DNA of 41,283 bases from a virus. Location: the IMG/VR virus record IMGVR_UViG_3300036790_000238, positions 1 through 41,283 of that record. The stretch is one strand, 5' to 3'. The notes beneath the pieces are model-generated. The model did not search any database and was not told the DNA's origin. It saw nothing but the letters and a program-made list of their open reading frames with translations. Every line of letters begins with the position of its first letter. Positions within the stretch are counted from its first letter, which is position 1. Shown one piece after another: positions 12,738 to 21,663 of the stretch. The position numbers and the translations under genes were made by a program.

Positions 12738-12741
12738 TCGA

Positions 12742-13440
12742 ATGAGCAAGAAAGTCGTATTCTGCACGCCTGCGCTCGATTCTCCTATTGAGCCCTATTT
12801 CGAATCGATGAAGGCTTCGCTTCCGCTGCTCGAAGAAGCCGGATGGGAGCACGCCTACGCTGCTCAGCGCGCCTGCCCCTACATCAGCGCGGCAAGAGCT
12901 AACATGCTGCGCTCCGCTCTGGACGCCCGGGCAGATGTCGTTGTGTTTCTCGATTACGACGTTTCATGGAGGCCGGGAGATTTGCTCAAGTTGCTCGAAA
13001 CGGAAGGCGACGTAGCGGCTGGAACGTATCGATGCAAGACGGAAGACGGTCCGACAGCAGAGTTTTACATGGGAACGTGGGAAACGAATGCCGACTTCAC
13101 GCCTCAGGTGCGGTCCGATGGCGCTATCAATGCTCGCCTCATTCCGGCGGGATTCATGAAAATCACCGCGGCTGGAGTCGATAAGTTCATGATGGAATAC
13201 CCCGAGCTTTGTTATGGCCCGATGTACCACCAGTCCGTAGACCTGTTCAATCATGGCGTCCGCGACCGCATCTGGTGGGGCGAGGATTATGCGTTCTCGC
13301 GGCGCTGGAAAGAGAAGTGCGGCGATATCTGGATCGTGCCGGACCTGAGCGTCGATCACCACGCTGGCGGCAAGGTCTATAAAGGCAACCTGCATCAGTT
13401 TCTGCTGCGCCAGCCGGGAGGAAGCCTCCATGAACCTTAA
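12742..13440 (+). CDS. GT-A fold glycosyltransferase
   Basis: The 232-residue protein has the nucleotide-sugar-binding DYD motif (71-73, in VVVFLDYDVSW) and a late WGEDYAFSRRW (179-189) plus DHHAGG, as in small family-2-like glycosyltransferases of phages. No membrane segment is seen, so it acts in the cytosol. Its place between coat and the tail adaptor suggests modification of a virion protein; modifying host glycans or DNA is also possible. I chose the ATG at 12742 because the open frame further upstream only overlaps the coat and 79-aa genes. Confidence 0.82.
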   Translation: MSKKVVFCTPALDSPIEPYFESMKASLPLLEEAGWEHAYAAQRACPYISAARANMLRSALDARADVVVFLDYDVSWRPGDLLKLLETEGDVAAGTYRCKTEDGPTAEFYMGTWETNADFTPQVRSDGAINARLIPAGFMKITAAGVDKFMMEYPELCYGPMYHQSVDLFNHGVRDRIWWGEDYAFSRRWKEKCGDIWIVPDLSVDHHAGGKVYKGNLHQFLLRQPGGSLHEP

Positions 13441-14310: not shown

Positions 14311-15770
14311 TGCGATTCGGATTCTGCGGATCGAGTTATACGTCGCGCTCCACTGCGGTGGCAGATGAAGAGATGATCAATCTCTTTCTGGAGACGCTGG
14401 AGTCTCAGGGAACGATTGCGCCAAAGAAGGCATATGGAGGGGCGACGGCTGGGCCGATGCAGATCCTCTACTACACGCCCGGCCTGAGCGTGTTTGCTAC
14501 GATTCCCAGTCCTACGAGAGGATCGGTGACGAACGGAGTCAGAACGTTCTCTGTGGGCGGCGCCTCTCTGGTTGAACTCTTCGCAGACGGCACGCAGACC
14601 ACACGCGGCGCGGTGGTTAACGACAATCTTCCGGTTTCGATGGTCTTTAACCCCATCCAGTTGTTCATCGTCTCCGCCGGGCACGCTTACTGCCTTGTCC
14701 TGGCGACGAATGTGCTCACCGAGGTTACCGCCCAATTGCAGGGCACGCCGATCAAAGGAGAGTTTTCAGACGGCTACTTTATCGCTCTGCTCGCTCCGAA
14801 CATCCTGCAGTATTCCAATCCGCTGGACGGCACAACGTGGGACGCGAGCTTCATCGACGAAGTCTCCGTGTTCCCTGAGGCAGTAACGTCGATCATCTGC
14901 AATCACCGCGAACTCTGGGTTTTCGGAGGCAGGCACTTCCAGCCCTACCAGGATACGGGGTCAAACAATATCTTCGACGTGATTCCCGGGGCCATGATGG
15001 AGACGGGCAATCTGTCAACCTTCGGACCGTGCCGCGTCGATAACACAGTCTTCTGGGTGGATGAGAGCGAGCGTGGAGCGTTCTCGGCATGGCGGGCGAA
15101 CGGCTACAGCCCGGAAAGAATCTCGACGCACGCTGTGGAACTGGCGCTTTCCTCCTATGCCAACACGGCGAACCTGGTGTCTTATGCCTACCAGGAAGCT
15201 GGGCACCTCTTCTGGGTGCTGTACATCCCCGGCGCGCCGTGCAGCTGGGTTTATGACGTTTGCGAGGGACTGTGGCACAAGCGCGCGTCCTTCGTCAGCG
15301 GAGCATACGGGCCGCACTTCAGTTGGAACCATGTCTTTGCGTTCGGCATGCACCTGGTAGGGGACTGGAATACCGGCAACATCTATCAGATGAGCATGGC
15401 AAACCTCACCGACAACGGCGCGGCGATTCGCAGACTTCGCCAGGCTCCCACAGTTGACGATGAAAAGAAGTGGATTCTTCACACTCAACTGACTATCGAC
15501 TTCGAGACCGGCCTCGGTCCTCAACCCCCGTTCACGGATGGCGACGGAAATCCCCGGCAACCGCAGGCAACGCTGAGCTGGAGTGATGACAGGGGCCGGA
15601 CATGGGGCAACGATCACATTCTCAACTGCGGATTCGCCGGCCAATACAGCACAAGGGTCGTACAGAGACGGCTGGGAAGGTCCAGAAACCGCGTTTACAG
15701 GCTCGTGATGACCGATCCCATTGCGTGGGTGGTTACTGATGCCTACCTGGATACGGTGCCGAGCGTATGA
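14310..15770 (+). CDS. Packaged-DNA stabilization protein, P22 gp10-like
   Basis: The 486-residue length is close to P22 gp10 (472). The start MRFGFCGSSYTSRSTAVADE with ...NLFLETLESQG matches the gp10 family's opening, where the phage lists its tail hub strands. The protein is beta-propeller-like with repeated hydrophobic and aromatic strands. It forms the hexameric hub below gp4. Start and stop overlap both neighbours. Confidence 0.88.
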   Translation: MRFGFCGSSYTSRSTAVADEEMINLFLETLESQGTIAPKKAYGGATAGPMQILYYTPGLSVFATIPSPTRGSVTNGVRTFSVGGASLVELFADGTQTTRGAVVNDNLPVSMVFNPIQLFIVSAGHAYCLVLATNVLTEVTAQLQGTPIKGEFSDGYFIALLAPNILQYSNPLDGTTWDASFIDEVSVFPEAVTSIICNHRELWVFGGRHFQPYQDTGSNNIFDVIPGAMMETGNLSTFGPCRVDNTVFWVDESERGAFSAWRANGYSPERISTHAVELALSSYANTANLVSYAYQEAGHLFWVLYIPGAPCSWVYDVCEGLWHKRASFVSGAYGPHFSWNHVFAFGMHLVGDWNTGNIYQMSMANLTDNGAAIRRLRQAPTVDDEKKWILHTQLTIDFETGLGPQPPFTDGDGNPRQPQATLSWSDDRGRTWGNDHILNCGFAGQYSTRVVQRRLGRSRNRVYRLVMTDPIAWVVTDAYLDTVPSV

Positions 15771-16603
15771 GCAGCCCAAATCTGGTCGTTTCGCCCACGA
15801 TTTTGCAGGTCCCGGTTATCGACCCAAAAAGTGGGCGAGCGACGCCTATTTTCACCAAATGGCTGATCGCCGTAGCGAAGTCGCAGAAGACAGTCGTACT
15901 TTCGTTTGACCAGTCTGGCAATCTGCAGGCTCCCGTAGGGGCTCAGGCAACGCTGGCGGTACGTGGGATCGCCCTGACGACGCTGCTGGATCACCTGACG
16001 AATGTGGGGCTCCTGGACACTACCGACAGCATTGCGGTTGACGGGACAGGGCATCCTCTGGCGGGCGGAAAAGCCGCTTATTCCGCACTGGTCGTTTCCG
16101 CGCCAACAAGCGGTCAGGTTTTAGGCTGGAATGGAGCCAACTGGGTTCCTGTCACGCTCGCGGCAGGCGGAGTGACGCAGATCATTGCCGGAACCAATGT
16201 CTCCATCAGCCCCTCAGGCGGTACCGGGGCAGTTACGATCAACGCGGCGGGAGGAAGCAGCGGAACTCCCACGGCGACTGTAGGGCCAGCGGCCGGAACG
16301 GTCGGAGCAGAGACGCCTTCCGCAACGCTGGCTGCCGGCTCGACTGATTCGCGGGGACAGATTCAGATCGTTACCGGGACCGGACCCACCACAGGCATTC
16401 TGGCAACCATCAATCTTTCGGCTGCAGTTGGGTCTTTCGTCCTCATTTCCCCGGCCAACGGAGCCGCTATCGCAGCCGGCGGAGTAGCAAGCCAGGTATC
16501 GGCCCAGATGGTGACCTCGAGCGAGTGGACTCTGACAGCAGACCCGAACGCGACGCAGGCAGATGTGAATTTCATGGCATGGAATTATTGGGTGATTGCG
16601 TGA
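15767..16603 (+). CDS. Tail needle or fibre-like protein in the gp26 position
   Basis: The 278-residue protein has a helical start (PIFTKWLIAVAKSQKTVVLS). A Gly/Ala-rich fibrous middle (SAPTSGQVLGWNGANWVPVT, TQIIAGTNVSISPSGGTGAV) follows, as in trimeric tail fibres. The C-terminal beta knob (GQIQIVTGTGPTTGILATIN to MAWNYWVIA) resembles fibre tips. P22 encodes its needle gp26 directly after gp10, so a needle/plug or receptor-tip role is likely. Sequence alone does not separate needle from fibre. Confidence 0.7.
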   Translation: MSSPNLVVSPTILQVPVIDPKSGRATPIFTKWLIAVAKSQKTVVLSFDQSGNLQAPVGAQATLAVRGIALTTLLDHLTNVGLLDTTDSIAVDGTGHPLAGGKAAYSALVVSAPTSGQVLGWNGANWVPVTLAAGGVTQIIAGTNVSISPSGGTGAVTINAAGGSSGTPTATVGPAAGTVGAETPSATLAAGSTDSRGQIQIVTGTGPTTGILATINLSAAVGSFVLISPANGAAIAAGGVASQVSAQMVTSSEWTLTADPNATQADVNFMAWNYWVIA

Positions 16604-16812
16604 CGATACGGTCTCGAGTTCTTGAAGTGGTGCAGCGAGAAGTGAGCGGAGTCGTCCTGCCCTCGACTCAGCTTGACCGGCTGGGACTTGATTCGCTGGA
16701 GACATTGAACCTGTTTCTTATGCTCTCGAAAGAGGTTGACGATATTCCCGACTCCGAGATTCCTAATCTACAGACGGTCGGCGACATCATCGGCTATCTG
16801 GAGCGCCAGTGA
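16600..16812 (+). CDS. Acyl carrier protein
   Basis: The GTG start overlaps the previous stop (GTGA), giving 70 residues. The phosphopantetheine site LGLDSLE places the modified serine at residue 32. The four-helix plan fits: helix 1 RSRVLEVVQREV, helix 2 from DSLETLNLFLML, then IPDSEIPNLQTVGDIIGYLE. Such proteins carry acyl groups as thioesters after a host phosphopantetheinyl transferase attaches the arm. It overlaps the GNAT gene by GTGA, so the two are co-translated. A coding place inside the virion operon is unusual. Confidence 0.88.
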   Translation: MTIRSRVLEVVQREVSGVVLPSTQLDRLGLDSLETLNLFLMLSKEVDDIPDSEIPNLQTVGDIIGYLERQ

Positions 16813-17279
16813 CCTCGATTCAGGTTGAAAGCTGGGAAAAAGCCTTTCCTGATATCAAAGCCCTGTTTCCGGGGCACTGGAAAGAACTGGCGATGTTTCA
16901 GGAAGATATCCCGCTGGGCATCGATGAAGAGAAATATGCGGCGCTGGACAAGGCCGAAATCCTTCTTATCCTCACCGCACGCTCCGAGGGGAAGCTGGTT
17001 GGGTACTACTTCTGGTTCGTCATGCCGCACCCGCATTACTGCACGGCAGGTCCTATGGGGCTGACAGATATGTACTATGTGTTGCCTGAATATCGCGGCG
17101 GGACAGGAGCCAGGTTGTTCATCGCCAGCGAGACTGAGTTGCGGAAGCGGGGCGTCATCAAGGCGATCACCAGCTGCAAGTTGAGCGAAGACCATACAGC
17201 TTTTCTGGAATGCCTGGGATGGACCTGGAGCGATAAAACTTTTGTGAAGCTCCTGAAGGGGGAAAACGGATGTCCGTAA
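16809..17279 (+). CDS. GNAT-family acyltransferase
   Basis: The 156-residue protein has the GNAT core. A strand (GKLVGYYFWFV) is followed by HPHYCTAGPMGLTDMYYVLP and the pyrophosphate-binding loop RGGTGAR (96-102). GNATs of this general type, with the HPHY segment, recur in podovirus virion regions, with an unknown substrate. Here it is coupled to an acyl carrier protein, so the donor may be acyl-ACP rather than acetyl-CoA, as in HlyC-type or LuxI-type GNAT-fold acyltransferases. The neighbouring ejection proteins are candidate acceptors; this is inference. Confidence 0.85.
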   Translation: MTSIQVESWEKAFPDIKALFPGHWKELAMFQEDIPLGIDEEKYAALDKAEILLILTARSEGKLVGYYFWFVMPHPHYCTAGPMGLTDMYYVLPEYRGGTGARLFIASETELRKRGVIKAITSCKLSEDHTAFLECLGWTWSDKTFVKLLKGENGCP

Positions 17280-18460
17280 CCGGCGGAATTCTGGCGGGCG
17301 TAGGGCTGGCGGGCAGCATCGGTGCCGCAGCTATCGGATCAAACGCGTCGCAGAACGCGGCGAGCACACAGGCCAATGCGGCTGACCAGGCGGCGCAACT
17401 TCAGTATCAGGCTTCGCAAAATGCGCTCGGATTCCAGGAGCAGGAATTCAATCAGAGCCAGGCCAACCTTCAGCCCTGGCTGCAGTCTGGCGCGGGTGCT
17501 TTGTCCAGCCTCGATTACGGGCTGGGCATCACTCCGCAGGCTATTGGGCAAACGAACTCGGTAGGGAACTTTACCGCTCCGGCGTCTTCGACCGCGGCGG
17601 CTCCGACCAATATCGGTTCTACGGTTCCTCGACCGTCTCCGCTGACTACGGGGCCTTCGGGTATCCAGTCTCCGAGCGGCGGACCTATTACGGCTCCGGG
17701 AGTCGGGAGTACGCTTCCCGGCGCACCGGTATCGACTCCGGTGAAACTCGGTTCGGCTGGGACGGCGGCTGGAACGGCTGCGACTCCTGTTACCGGCACC
17801 CCAGCCTCTCCGGTGGGCACAGCAGGCGCGAATCCGGCAGCGGGCGGGATGGGATATGGCTCCCTGCTGGCGTCCTATCCTGGGGGTCAGTTCACGGCTC
17901 CCACCGCTGCCCAGGCTGAGCAATATCCCGGCGAGCAGTTCATGATGCAGCAGGGCAACCAGGCCATTCAGCAATCGGCTGCTGCGTCCGGGGGTCTGCT
18001 GACAGGCGGGACGGCAAAGGCTCTGGACCAGTATTCTCAGGGTCTGGCATCGACCGACTATCAGAATGTCTACAACAACACGCTGGGAAGTTACGACACC
18101 AATTACAACGCCTTCGAGAACAATCAGGCAAATAGCTACAACCGGCTGGCATCGCTCGCCGGGCTGGGGCAGACGACTGCGCAGCAACTTGGATCGCAGG
18201 GGCAGTCAGCCGCCAATGCGGTAGGGAGCAATCTGCTGGGAACGGCGTCGGCGATGGGGCAGGACTACCAGAACGCCGCCGCTGCCAATGCTTCCGGATA
18301 TGTCGGCTCAGCGAATGCCTGGGGCGGGGCTCTCAGTGGGTCCAGCGGCAGCCTGCAGAATCTCCTGCTTCTGCAGCAATTAGGGCTCGGAGGCAATCTG
18401 GGCACCTCTGCCAGCAATCTTGACAACTTCGCGTCATCCGTAGGGGGGGTATTAGGCTAA
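17270..18460 (+). CDS. Ejection protein, P22 gp7 position
   Basis: The 396-residue protein opens with a hydrophobic glycine-rich stretch (GGILAGVGLAGSIGAAAIGS) of the kind found at the N-terminus of phage DNA-transfer proteins. It then has Gln/Ala-rich helices and a long low-complexity Pro/Thr/Gly middle (about residues 90-200), followed by more Gln/Asn-rich helices. Proteins of this type are packed in the head and injected to build a channel across the envelope. The call rests on composition and gene order (after the needle position, before gp20-like). Confidence 0.65.
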   Translation: MSVTGGILAGVGLAGSIGAAAIGSNASQNAASTQANAADQAAQLQYQASQNALGFQEQEFNQSQANLQPWLQSGAGALSSLDYGLGITPQAIGQTNSVGNFTAPASSTAAAPTNIGSTVPRPSPLTTGPSGIQSPSGGPITAPGVGSTLPGAPVSTPVKLGSAGTAAGTAATPVTGTPASPVGTAGANPAAGGMGYGSLLASYPGGQFTAPTAAQAEQYPGEQFMMQQGNQAIQQSAAASGGLLTGGTAKALDQYSQGLASTDYQNVYNNTLGSYDTNYNAFENNQANSYNRLASLAGLGQTTAQQLGSQGQSAANAVGSNLLGTASAMGQDYQNAAAANASGYVGSANAWGGALSGSSGSLQNLLLLQQLGLGGNLGTSASNLDNFASSVGGVLG

Positions 18461-20031
18461 TGGGAACGATTCCTCTGCCCGCTTTGCACGTCAACCCTCC
18501 AGCGCCTGCTCCCGATCCGCTGGAGCAGTATGGACGCCTGATGTGGCTGCAGAACATGCAGCAGCAGCAGCAGACCAACCAGCAACTGCGTCCGCTGCAG
18601 ATTCAGGCCGCTCAAACCGCCGCCCAGCAGGGCACCCTGGACGTCCAGAAAAGCCAGCAGGACCTCAGGGACCAGCAGGGTATCGCCAACTGGTTCAAGA
18701 ATATTGATCCGAAAGCTGACCCTGCATCAGTTACCGATCCTGTCGCAGTAGGGAGAACTCTCGCGCAGCAAGGCGTTTCCGGAGGCGCGATTATGAAGGT
18801 TCAGGCCGGAATTCTGCAGCAGCATCAGACCCTCGCGACCCTCACCAAGGACGAGCTAACAAACAAGCAGACGATTTCTGACAATCTGGCCAACGGAATC
18901 AACGGAGTTATTGGCGAGACTGATCCGGCCAAGCGCACCGCCGCCCTTACTCCGCTGATACAAACGGCGGCCCAGAGCGGATTGCTTCCTGTTCCGGCTG
19001 CGCAGCAGATGCTCGCCAACCCCGGAGCCATCACGGATGACCAGTTAAAGCAATTCCAGAAAGGCCTGGGGGTCAGTGCTGCATTTACTCAGGCGGCGGC
19101 GCGCCAGACTTCAGCGCAAACGGAAAAAGACAAGCTTGCGGCTTCGATGAACCCACAGAGTTCTCTATATGCCCCCTCAGCAGCTTCCGTGTCGTTGGGA
19201 ACCGCTCCCGGCGCGGCTCAGATTCAGGCAGGGCAGAGCGCGCAGGCCGCGAGGACCGCTGGCGCGGAAGAGTCCGCTCGCCTGCCAGGAGAAATGCAGC
19301 TCGCCGCGCAGAGACAGGCCCTGATGCAGGGCGATCCGAAGGCCGCTGGCCATCTTCTGACAACGGGCGAAGCGACGCTCTCGGAATTAAAGACGCGGGG
19401 GGCCACGCCGCAGTTTATTGAGCAAGCCCTGCAGGCGGCTAGCCAGGAAAGCGGCGGGAAGTACAACGCGATGCAGGCGGATGCGGCGTTTCAGGTCGCC
19501 AAATCTCAGGCGAACGTGGCCTTTTTTGGCTCCTCGAAGTCCCTCACCGATCCTGGAGGGACGCTGGACCAGCTGGCTCAGGTCGGGAAGACTATCCCGC
19601 AGAACCAGATTCCGGCGTTCAATTCCGTCGCGGACTGGGAAAAGGCTGCTACCGGCAGCGGTCCGCTGGCGCACTACGCTGCTACGGCGCTGGGCGTCGC
19701 GGATGACTATGCCAAGGTGATGGGGGGTGGCCAGGGAAGCGATACATCCCGCCTGCAGGCTCTCCAGATCATCAATAAGAACCTCAGCCCTGAAGGCCGA
19801 GCGGCTGCAATTGACGGCATCCGCAACGCCGTCACGTCTCAAACGAATTCTCGCATCGGCGCTAATCCTATTTTGCAGAGGATGTATGGGAACGGGACCG
19901 GACAGCCAACCCAGCCGAGCGCGCCTTCCTCGGCACCTGCCTCTTCGCAGTCTCCGAAGATGGATCAGGTAAAGACCTTTCCGAACGGCAAGGTGGGCAA
20001 GTGGGATGGAACCGGCTGGGTGGCTCAGTAG
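18460..20031 (+). CDS. Ejection protein, P22 gp20 position
   Basis: The 523-residue protein is strongly Gln/Ala-rich and helical (WLQNMQQQQQTNQQLRPLQI), lacks membrane segments, and ends with a Pro/Ser-rich linker plus a compact FPNGKVGKWDGTGWVAQ tail. Its start overlaps the stop of the gp7-position gene. Size, composition and order match the second of the three P22 ejection proteins (gp7, gp20, gp16), although I see no specific motif. Confidence 0.6.
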   Translation: MGTIPLPALHVNPPAPAPDPLEQYGRLMWLQNMQQQQQTNQQLRPLQIQAAQTAAQQGTLDVQKSQQDLRDQQGIANWFKNIDPKADPASVTDPVAVGRTLAQQGVSGGAIMKVQAGILQQHQTLATLTKDELTNKQTISDNLANGINGVIGETDPAKRTAALTPLIQTAAQSGLLPVPAAQQMLANPGAITDDQLKQFQKGLGVSAAFTQAAARQTSAQTEKDKLAASMNPQSSLYAPSAASVSLGTAPGAAQIQAGQSAQAARTAGAEESARLPGEMQLAAQRQALMQGDPKAAGHLLTTGEATLSELKTRGATPQFIEQALQAASQESGGKYNAMQADAAFQVAKSQANVAFFGSSKSLTDPGGTLDQLAQVGKTIPQNQIPAFNSVADWEKAATGSGPLAHYAATALGVADDYAKVMGGGQGSDTSRLQALQIINKNLSPEGRAAAIDGIRNAVTSQTNSRIGANPILQRMYGNGTGQPTQPSAPSSAPASSQSPKMDQVKTFPNGKVGKWDGTGWVAQ

Positions 20032-21663
20032 ATGCCATATCTCGACGCGAACGGCAACCCGATTTCCTCGCCAGCAGCCTCTTCGCCGAAGGTCTATCTC
20101 AATCCGGCTACAGGAGAGCCGGTTGGACAAGGGCAGTCGCCGGGATTTTTCAAGTCGATGCAGAATTCTGTTGACCAGACCCTGAACGCGCCTCCCACGG
20201 ATTCAGGCTGGCGCGGGGAAGTCGAGAACTTTGGCCAGACGGCGGCCAAAACCCTGCTCGCTCCGGTTCTTCACCCCGTCCAAACGCTTCAGGGCGTGGC
20301 TAACGCTGCCTCCGGACCCGTCCCCGGACTTGCGCCAGCCATTGATGAGGCTACTAACCTGCATGACGCTTACCAGCAGGGAGGGACTCCCCGCGTCCTG
20401 TCTACGGCAGCCGGCCAGGTCGCTGGAGGAGCACTACAGGGCGGTTTGATGAAGGCGGTTCCTGAAGTCGCTTCGACTGGAGCCAGTGCGGTTCGGTCCG
20501 CAGCCGATGCTACCGGTCTGATGGATGGCCCTCCAGAATCGCTGATGACGCAGGCCATGCGGGGGAGTGTCAATAAAAATAACGTCAACTGGGCCTCCGA
20601 CGTGAAACAGGCCGTTCCGCTGATGAAGTCAGCCGAGCCTCAGATCGGGCGTCCGATTCAGGGCATTGACGACGCACTCGCCGCGGCGAAGACGGCAAAA
20701 CAGTCAATCTGGCAGCAGTATCAGGCGCGGCTCAACAACGCGGGCGGGCAGAGCGCCACAATCGACGGCAACGAGATTGCCGATGCGATGCAGAACAGCG
20801 TTGATAAGCGAACCGCGCTCCAAAACCCTCAGTTAGCGGACAAAGTGAAGCAAATTGCCGACACCTATCGGCGTCCGATACCGGTTCAGGAGGCAGAGGA
20901 GTTTCTGCAGTCGGCAAACCGAGACCTGACTACCTATTATGCGAAAAACAAGGTCGGGCAACAGGTAGCCCAGGCCGATCCGGAGACTGCCTACCAGGTG
21001 GCCGAGACAGGCGCGCTCCGAGACGCTCTTTATTCGAAAATGGACGACCTGACCGGTCCCGGGTCTGCGCAGTTGAAGCAGGCTTACGGGTCCCTCAGCA
21101 ATGTTCAGAAGGTGCTGGCCGACAGGCAGCTCGTCGCCGCGCGGCAGGCTCCTCAGACGCTCCCTGAGCAACTCGGCTTTCTTCGCGGAGTCGGGAAAAT
21201 CGCGAAAAGCGCCGCCAACATGGAATTTGGAGACGCCGCAGAAGGCGTTGGAAACATGGTCGGCGCGCGCTGGCTGGCTGCGCGGAACTCCTCCGACGCC
21301 ATGATTACGCGGGCGTTTCAGAATGCTCCGCAGGCTCAGCCCTTCCCCGCATCGCAGTTCCGCCCGCCTCTCCCGGTGGGGCACCAGCTTCCAGCCCAGA
21401 GCGGTGCTCCAACAATTCTTCCCTACAACCCGCAGATGACCCCAGGGGAACAGGTCGCAGCTGCCATGCAGGCCGCTCGTCAAAACCCTCAACTCGCGCT
21501 TCCTGCGTCCGCTGGACGCGGGGCACCCACAATTCTGCCGACCAGCGCGATGACAGCCGGGGAAAAGTCTGCGGCGCTGATGCAGTACCTGCGCCAGCGA
21601 CAGCAACTCGCGCTTCCCGCCAAGGCTTCTCCTCTCCTCACGCCGCCGCCGCCGCAACAATAA
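20032..21663 (+). CDS. Ejection protein, P22 gp16 position
   Basis: The 543-residue protein follows directly on the previous stop. It starts PYLDANGNPISSPAASSPKV, a motif echoed at the end of the preceding protein (FPNGKVGKWDG), then has helical Gln/Ala-rich stretches and a Pro/Ala-rich end with two copies of a GAPTILP...MT.GE....A repeat (about 460 and 500). No transglycosylase motif is evident. Its place before the tailspike matches gp16, the P22 protein that crosses the membrane first. Confidence 0.6.
   Translation: MPYLDANGNPISSPAASSPKVYLNPATGEPVGQGQSPGFFKSMQNSVDQTLNAPPTDSGWRGEVENFGQTAAKTLLAPVLHPVQTLQGVANAASGPVPGLAPAIDEATNLHDAYQQGGTPRVLSTAAGQVAGGALQGGLMKAVPEVASTGASAVRSAADATGLMDGPPESLMTQAMRGSVNKNNVNWASDVKQAVPLMKSAEPQIGRPIQGIDDALAAAKTAKQSIWQQYQARLNNAGGQSATIDGNEIADAMQNSVDKRTALQNPQLADKVKQIADTYRRPIPVQEAEEFLQSANRDLTTYYAKNKVGQQVAQADPETAYQVAETGALRDALYSKMDDLTGPGSAQLKQAYGSLSNVQKVLADRQLVAARQAPQTLPEQLGFLRGVGKIAKSAANMEFGDAAEGVGNMVGARWLAARNSSDAMITRAFQNAPQAQPFPASQFRPPLPVGHQLPAQSGAPTILPYNPQMTPGEQVAAAMQAARQNPQLALPASAGRGAPTILPTSAMTAGEKSAALMQYLRQRQQLALPAKASPLLTPPPPQQ

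Follow-up and report, generated by a model that had tools for sequence, protein, structure and literature searches.

Within the 41,283 bases of the IMG/VR virus record IMGVR_UViG_3300036790_000238 (hereinafter, the window, meaning the whole stretch of DNA that was analysed), a gene for an acyl carrier protein (ACP) and a gene for a GNAT acyltransferase form one translationally coupled unit that is embedded in the virion operon, directly before the ejection genes. Phage GNATs in this position, isolated phage ACPs, acylation of the HlyC type and the FeeM/FeeL system are already known; what is new is a GNAT of this position with a dedicated ACP. The pairing suggests, without proving, that an acyl group is attached to a protein that is injected into the host. 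In the literature searched, which comprised papers available without subscription, we found neither a phage ACP-GNAT pair nor acyl modification of podophage ejection proteins, and a review of ejection proteins mentions no acylation.

The plus-strand operon of the window encodes, in order, the terminase, portal, scaffold and coat proteins, an adaptor of the SU10/P22-gp4-like type, the gp10-like Hc3 head closure protein, a needle-position protein, the ACP, the GNAT and three ejection-position proteins. It thus runs in the order of phage P22 (4, 10, 26, 14, 7, 20, 16), with the ACP and GNAT genes filling the slot of P22 gene 14, between the needle-like gene and the gp7-like ejection gene. The features that are relevant here are as follows:

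15767-16603, plus strand: needle-position structural gene, an open reading frame with a weak match to phrog_9627 (6.9e-7); same position in L018 and L020
16600-16812, plus strand: ACP, 70 amino acids, GTG start, PF00550, 15 distinct orthologues
16690-16698, plus strand: D31-S32-L33, the predicted 4'-phosphopantetheine attachment site, invariant columns
16809-17279, plus strand: GNAT acyltransferase, 156 amino acids, GTG start, PF00583 and phrog_1249
16875-16877, plus strand: His23 codon of the GNAT, helix 1, invariant in 39 family members
17067-17069, plus strand: Asp87 codon of the GNAT, strand E82-91, invariant in 39 family members, candidate general base
17270-18460, plus strand: gp7-like ejection protein, candidate substrate, phrog_598 (DNA ejection, E 4e-21), N-terminus MSVTGGILAGVGLAGSIG
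18460-20031, plus strand: second ejection-position gene, an open reading frame that is gp20-like by position
20032-21663, plus strand: third ejection-position gene, an open reading frame that is gp16-like by position only

Both the junction of the needle-position gene with the ACP gene (16600-16603) and that of the ACP gene with the GNAT gene (16809-16812) are GTGA overlaps, and the gp7-like gene starts inside the GNAT gene with an overlap of 10 bases. Tight gene overlaps of the GTGA kind usually reflect translational coupling. Elsewhere in the operon, an additional plus-strand gene lies between those for coat and adaptor (12739-13437). It matches phrog_1574, a family of unknown function, with an E-value of 9e-17, and its product looks to us like a glycosyltransferase, in which case the virion operon would have a second enzyme for modification.

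A direct search returned one close viral relative (L001), in which the GNAT is 75% identical to that of the window and the ACP, in the same overlapping position, only about 40%. A wider search yielded 80 GNAT loci, and an ACP model run on these and on the GNAT-bearing loci of named phages identified an ACP gene directly upstream of the GNAT gene in the window, L017 (the same as L001), L018, L019, L020, L021 and L031. These seven GNATs formed one clade in the first tree (support 99/98), and in this first set the model detected an adjacent ACP beside none of the 85 GNATs outside the clade. Searches with a profile of the clade then added nine viral loci (L104-L112) and two bacterial ones, from an Acidobacteria metagenome-assembled genome (L113) and from a prophage of Acidicapsa dinghuensis (L114), with an ACP in every one. 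Thus, the ACP lies directly upstream in 18 of 18 loci of this GNAT subfamily, which amount to 15 distinct loci as L106-L109 are identical here; given this regularity and the invariant DSL motif, the pair cannot be put down to chance. In the enlarged tree, the 15 GNATs paired with an ACP again form one clade, with lower support (80/87). A divergent second ACP-GNAT pair occurs in one further bacterial genome, from the same order (L291; G160:C79:8395-8832, minus strand); its GNAT falls outside the main clade, with unsure placement, so that a second gain of the ACP, or loss in the neighbours, is possible. Separately, the record of L054 contains an ACP-like match (G031:C1:33546-33671) away from its slot GNAT, which has no adjacent ACP.

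The reality of both genes, including the DSL serine at residue 32, and the GTGA overlap in the gp14 slot had been noted in the preliminary description and are borne out by the domain matches (PF00550, PF00583, phrog_1249) and by the coordinates together with the P22 gene order; the check proposed there, ACP-GNAT adjacency in relatives, whose absence had been named as a refutation, had the opposite outcome and revealed the strong clade-wide linkage described above. The accompanying remark on the lack of an ACP in most phages is fair, although some phages do have one (phrog_5934; Alteromonas phage R22Y, PMC11705849).

The Acidicapsa prophage (G051:C10, about 635,000-675,000) is syntenic with the window from the terminase to the ejection genes, and its second ejection-position protein is 48% identical to that of the window. 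This synteny points to Acidobacteriota, a phylum of soil bacteria, as the likely hosts, and short-tailed viruses of Acidobacteriota are likely to be the group that carries the pair. The Acidicapsa dinghuensis lysogen is a cultured system bearing the ACP-GNAT pair. A phosphopantetheinyl transferase of the AcpS/Sfp family (PF01648) scores above the cut-off in both Acidobacteriota genomes with the pair, so that loading of the phage ACP is possible.

Judged by its sequence, the product of 16600-16812 is an ACP with an intact predicted phosphopantetheine site. The window ACP matches PF00550 with an E-value of 2.2e-6 (28.3 bits against a curated cut-off of 20.8), and a profile of 7 ACP relatives matches solved ACPs, the best being 2ehs (E 6e-12). 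Individually, 13 of the 15 distinct ACPs match PF00550 at E <= 0.01, with weak scores in some relatives. Only four columns are invariant across the 15 proteins (mean column identity 39%), and three of these are D-S-L; given that the relatives are merely 23-46% identical to the window ACP, selection is keeping the attachment site intact. All 15 are acidic, with net charges between -6 and -10 (-6 for the window). Many are short, at 57-63 amino acids, with 6-7 residues missing after the DSL helix (L017, L018, L113, L114, L019, L020, L105, and L106), whereas the window ACP is of full length and has no such deletion.

The window GNAT matches PF00583 above the cut-off (E 1.6e-5) and phrog_1249, annotated as 'acetyltransferase' (1.4e-8). 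Its AlphaFold2 model (pLDDT 94.6) is closest in Foldseek to 7n1l, a RimI-type ribosomal-protein-alanine N-acetyltransferase of Brucella (E 6e-10, TM about 0.7), with aminoglycoside acetyltransferases also among the nearest solved folds, and the best solved match of the family profile is the N-alpha-acetyltransferase NAA30 (7l1k, E 3e-5). The predicted fold and the profile thus point to N-alpha-acetyltransferases of the RimI/NAA30 type. In the 39 family members compared, seven residues do not vary (H23, G65, Y66, H76, Y77, D87, and R96), and the GNATs paired with an ACP additionally display a one-residue insertion (G81) along with M88, Y89, and S122, features that are absent or rarer in the ACP-less GNATs. 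The CoA loop of the window protein, RGGTGA, is one residue short, and the RxxGxG motif is kept in the clade members L019, L020, and L031. Two further candidate signs of a specific ACP-GNAT relationship were dropped. A basic ACP-docking surface was sought via net charge, which did not differ between GNATs with and without an ACP; and the correlation of ACP and GNAT distances (r 0.57) fell to a partial r of 0.21 after correction for gp7, leaving no specific signal of coevolution.

GNATs of the same family without an ACP are encoded immediately ahead of an internal virion protein or an ejection protein in Zobellviridae of Vibrio, oyster-associated phages, the Pseudomonas phages GP100 and PfAn1, and others. 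Slot GNATs being widespread, it is the ACP that is the novelty: the GNAT is the old, common part, to which one lineage has added the ACP. Other observations on these loci include further putative modification enzymes, namely a gene product resembling Asp/Asn beta-hydroxylases whose gene adjoins the GNAT gene in the slot of PfAn1 (L004:7401-7994) and cupin-like proteins, by sequence reading, in the slot of two other phages (L199:1885-2367; L201:1788-2258), as well as the Limnohabitans phage DC33 (L013, PQ492659.1), which is filed under Inoviridae yet has 39 kb and a GNAT of the tailed-phage type, so that its taxonomy looks wrong.

As for the substrate, the gene downstream of the GNAT offers a hint. 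The gp7-like protein of the window, for which a search against named phages returned no match, starts with MS-TGGI-, and its first 20 or so residues are hydrophobic and membrane-prone. Throughout the clade, the overlapping or adjacent downstream protein begins with MS[VL]TGGI[LMI]AG- or a similar MS/MG-hydrophobic stretch (that of L031 being poorly readable), and a hydrophobic start is present in all 14 of the ACP-bearing loci scored. A start of the form M-[S/A/G/V/T]-hydrophobic, the hydrophobic stretch being uncharged, occurs in 39 of 49 genes downstream of a GNAT as against 9 of 422 other genes from the same loci; the loci being related to one another, the p-value calculated for this contrast is too favourable. 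However, homologues of the PfAn1 ejection protein from four phages without a slot GNAT also have hydrophobic N-termini, which makes the feature a trait of this class of ejection proteins and not a diagnostic one; accordingly, as a GNAT-specific substrate mark the M-[S/A/G]-hydrophobic N-terminus is only suggestive. In the P22 group, the gp7 proteins encoded beside DUF2824 start with ML- and contain early charges. On this moderate evidence from sequence comparison, an N-terminally modified ejection protein would be the most economical target, with a lysine or another virion protein also possible.

Taken together, a GNAT that resembles N-alpha-acetyltransferases and an overlapping ejection gene whose product has an MS-hydrophobic N-terminus make acylation of an ejection protein, as envisaged in the preliminary description, plausible, with the donor, the chain and the target being what we infer. 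The specific tie to enzymes of the HlyC or LuxI type that had been suggested at the same time is not supported: neither HlyC (at E <= 1) nor Autoind_synth or another synthase family of Pfam matches the window GNAT, and none of the HlyC, LuxI, and FeeM types is among its top 50 Foldseek matches, and membership in these groups was rejected on these grounds.

We tentatively propose, as a possibility somewhat short of an even chance, that the GNAT receives an acyl group from the ACP and uses it to acylate a virion protein made along with it, the likeliest being the gp7-like ejection protein. From what is known of ACP biology, the arming of the phage ACP would fall to a host phosphopantetheinyl transferase, and its charging either to the fatty-acid synthesis of the host or to an acyl-ACP synthetase. 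The GNAT, to go by its fold, the operon and the candidate substrate, would then transfer the acyl group from the ACP to the virion protein before packaging; the likeliest acceptor would be the N-terminal amine of the gp7-like protein, on the serine exposed after removal of the methionine. The acyl group would ease the entry of this protein into the host envelope in the following round of infection. In the ACP-less relatives, the slot GNAT might perform an equivalent step with acetyl-CoA or acyl-CoA. Counting against the use of acyl-ACP, the fold and the profile single out no enzyme with this donor. RimI and NAA30 are users of acetyl-CoA, and the normal CoA loop kept by several clade members likewise speaks against this donor.

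The most elaborate version of this proposal, which we consider rather unlikely, is a complete protein-lipidation module, in which a dedicated, often shortened ACP would pass a fatty acyl group to a RimI-like GNAT and thence to the N-terminus of the first ejection protein, which would give a virion with a lipidated, membrane-seeking injection protein. If true, such a module would be a phage counterpart of HlyC-type toxin activation on a different branch of the GNATs. More generally, the coupling of an ACP-GNAT unit to ejection genes bears on how the ejection proteins of podophages cross the host envelope.

A serious alternative, albeit a somewhat unlikely one, is that the GNAT is an ordinary acetyl-CoA-dependent acetyltransferase acting on the N-terminus or a lysine of a virion protein, whereas the ACP has an auxiliary function of its own, feeding host fatty-acid synthesis or diverting it, and is linked to the GNAT by no more than a common operon. 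The abundance of slot GNATs without an ACP, the proximity of the GNAT fold to acetyl-CoA enzymes and the lack of specific covariation between the two proteins are all in its favor, and ACPs of phages have been described as auxiliary metabolic genes (PMC11705849). Nevertheless, an independent metabolic gene would not be expected to be fixed upstream of one GNAT subfamily, in overlapping frames, in 15 diverged phages, and the many ACPs of 57-63 amino acids, shortened after the DSL helix, look specialised rather than like general fatty-acid carriers. A role of the GNAT in host metabolism has also been proposed for roseophages (PMC6918029); for the window GNAT such a reading is less likely, the gene being fixed at the ejection genes.

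The P22 counterpart of the slot GNAT raises another option. P22 gp14 (DUF2824, PF11039; L115:8911-9363) is annotated as a 'virion stability factor', and a title-level search of the literature on DUF2824 found none on its fold. Comparison of the slot GNAT profile with the gp14 family by hhalign detected no similarity, and homology at the profile level was rejected; the folds agree nonetheless. An AlphaFold2 model of the family, built from the homologue of Sodalis phage phiSG1 (L202:2501-2965), which aligns with the P22-type copies, has the GNAT topology (pLDDT 88), and its top 50 Foldseek matches are, as far as described, acetyltransferases or GNAT-type proteins. Thus, going by the models, the slot seems to hold GNAT-fold proteins both in phages of the window type and in the P22 group. 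The annotation of gp14 together with this predicted fold would accord with a GNAT-fold protein that serves assembly or virion stability, and with the ACP as its non-catalytic partner in folding or stability or as an allosteric sensor of acyl supply. We regard this as quite improbable, considering that the invariance of H23, H76, D87, and R96 in 39 members suggests catalysis and that of D-S-L suggests a need for the prosthetic group.

Synthesis of a small acylated molecule by the pair, a lipid or signal as in the LuxI or FeeM/FeeL systems, is very unlikely: an ACP beside a GNAT-fold synthase is indeed the FeeL/FeeM arrangement, but the searches with synthase families and the top 50 fold matches gave no such enzyme, and the relatives inspected have both genes within the late virion operon, where the ejection genes are. 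The idea that the ACP reading frame is unexpressed or encodes something else, which the weak Pfam scores of some relatives might encourage, is by far the least probable and already largely refuted by 15 distinct orthologues with an invariant DSL motif and with frame and overlaps kept, and by the match of their profile to solved ACPs.

The acylation of a virion protein by an ACP-GNAT pair, as proposed here, can be set against several known systems. RimI and NAA30, which provide the best fold match (7n1l) and the best profile match (7l1k) of the window GNAT, respectively, differ in being acetyl-CoA users that are not paired with an ACP. FeeM/FeeL, an N-acyl amino acid synthase, is likewise a GNAT-fold enzyme that has an adjacent ACP of its own; it sits in a biosynthetic cluster, whereas the window pair belongs to a virion operon, and no sequence match between the two was seen. 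The toxin-activating acyltransferases HlyC and CdiC combine a GNAT-like fold, an acyl-ACP donor and an acylated target that acts on the membrane of another cell (PMC8339906, PMC8510554), and acylation of the HlyC type uses the host ACP (PMC8339906). Residues H23 (helix 1) and D87 (fourth core strand) of the window GNAT recall the His/Asp pair of CdiC, H37/D107 (PMC8510554); the likeness is one of position, the pair is shared by ACP-less members, and D87 may simply be the usual base of a GNAT. In contrast to several GNATs of the window clade, which keep RxxGxG, HlyC and CdiC are described as being without typical CoA elements (PMC8339906), and, as noted, these enzymes are missing from the Pfam and top 50 fold matches of the window GNAT.

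Phage ACPs annotated as auxiliary (phrog_5934; gp30 of Alteromonas phage R22Y, PMC11705849) share the ACP fold and the DSL motif with the window ACP; the one inspected in a Rhizobium phage lies, unlike that of the window, away from the virion genes and beside a MazG-like gene. The slot GNATs of other phages (phrog_1249; Zobellviridae, PfAn1) have both the family and the place, after the tail or head-closure genes and just before a gene for an internal virion or ejection protein, in common with the window GNAT and differ in that none of the 85 outside the clade adjoins an ACP. P22 gp14, which is distinguished from the window pair by the lack of profile similarity and of an ACP and by a neighbouring gp7 that starts with ML- and early charges, nevertheless resembles the window GNAT in its slot between gp26 and gp7, its similar length and its predicted GNAT fold. 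Seen in the light of an ACP-GNAT unit coupled to ejection genes, P22 gp14 and the slot GNATs found so widely become candidates for enzymes that modify the virion, as opposed to metabolic genes with no relation to it.
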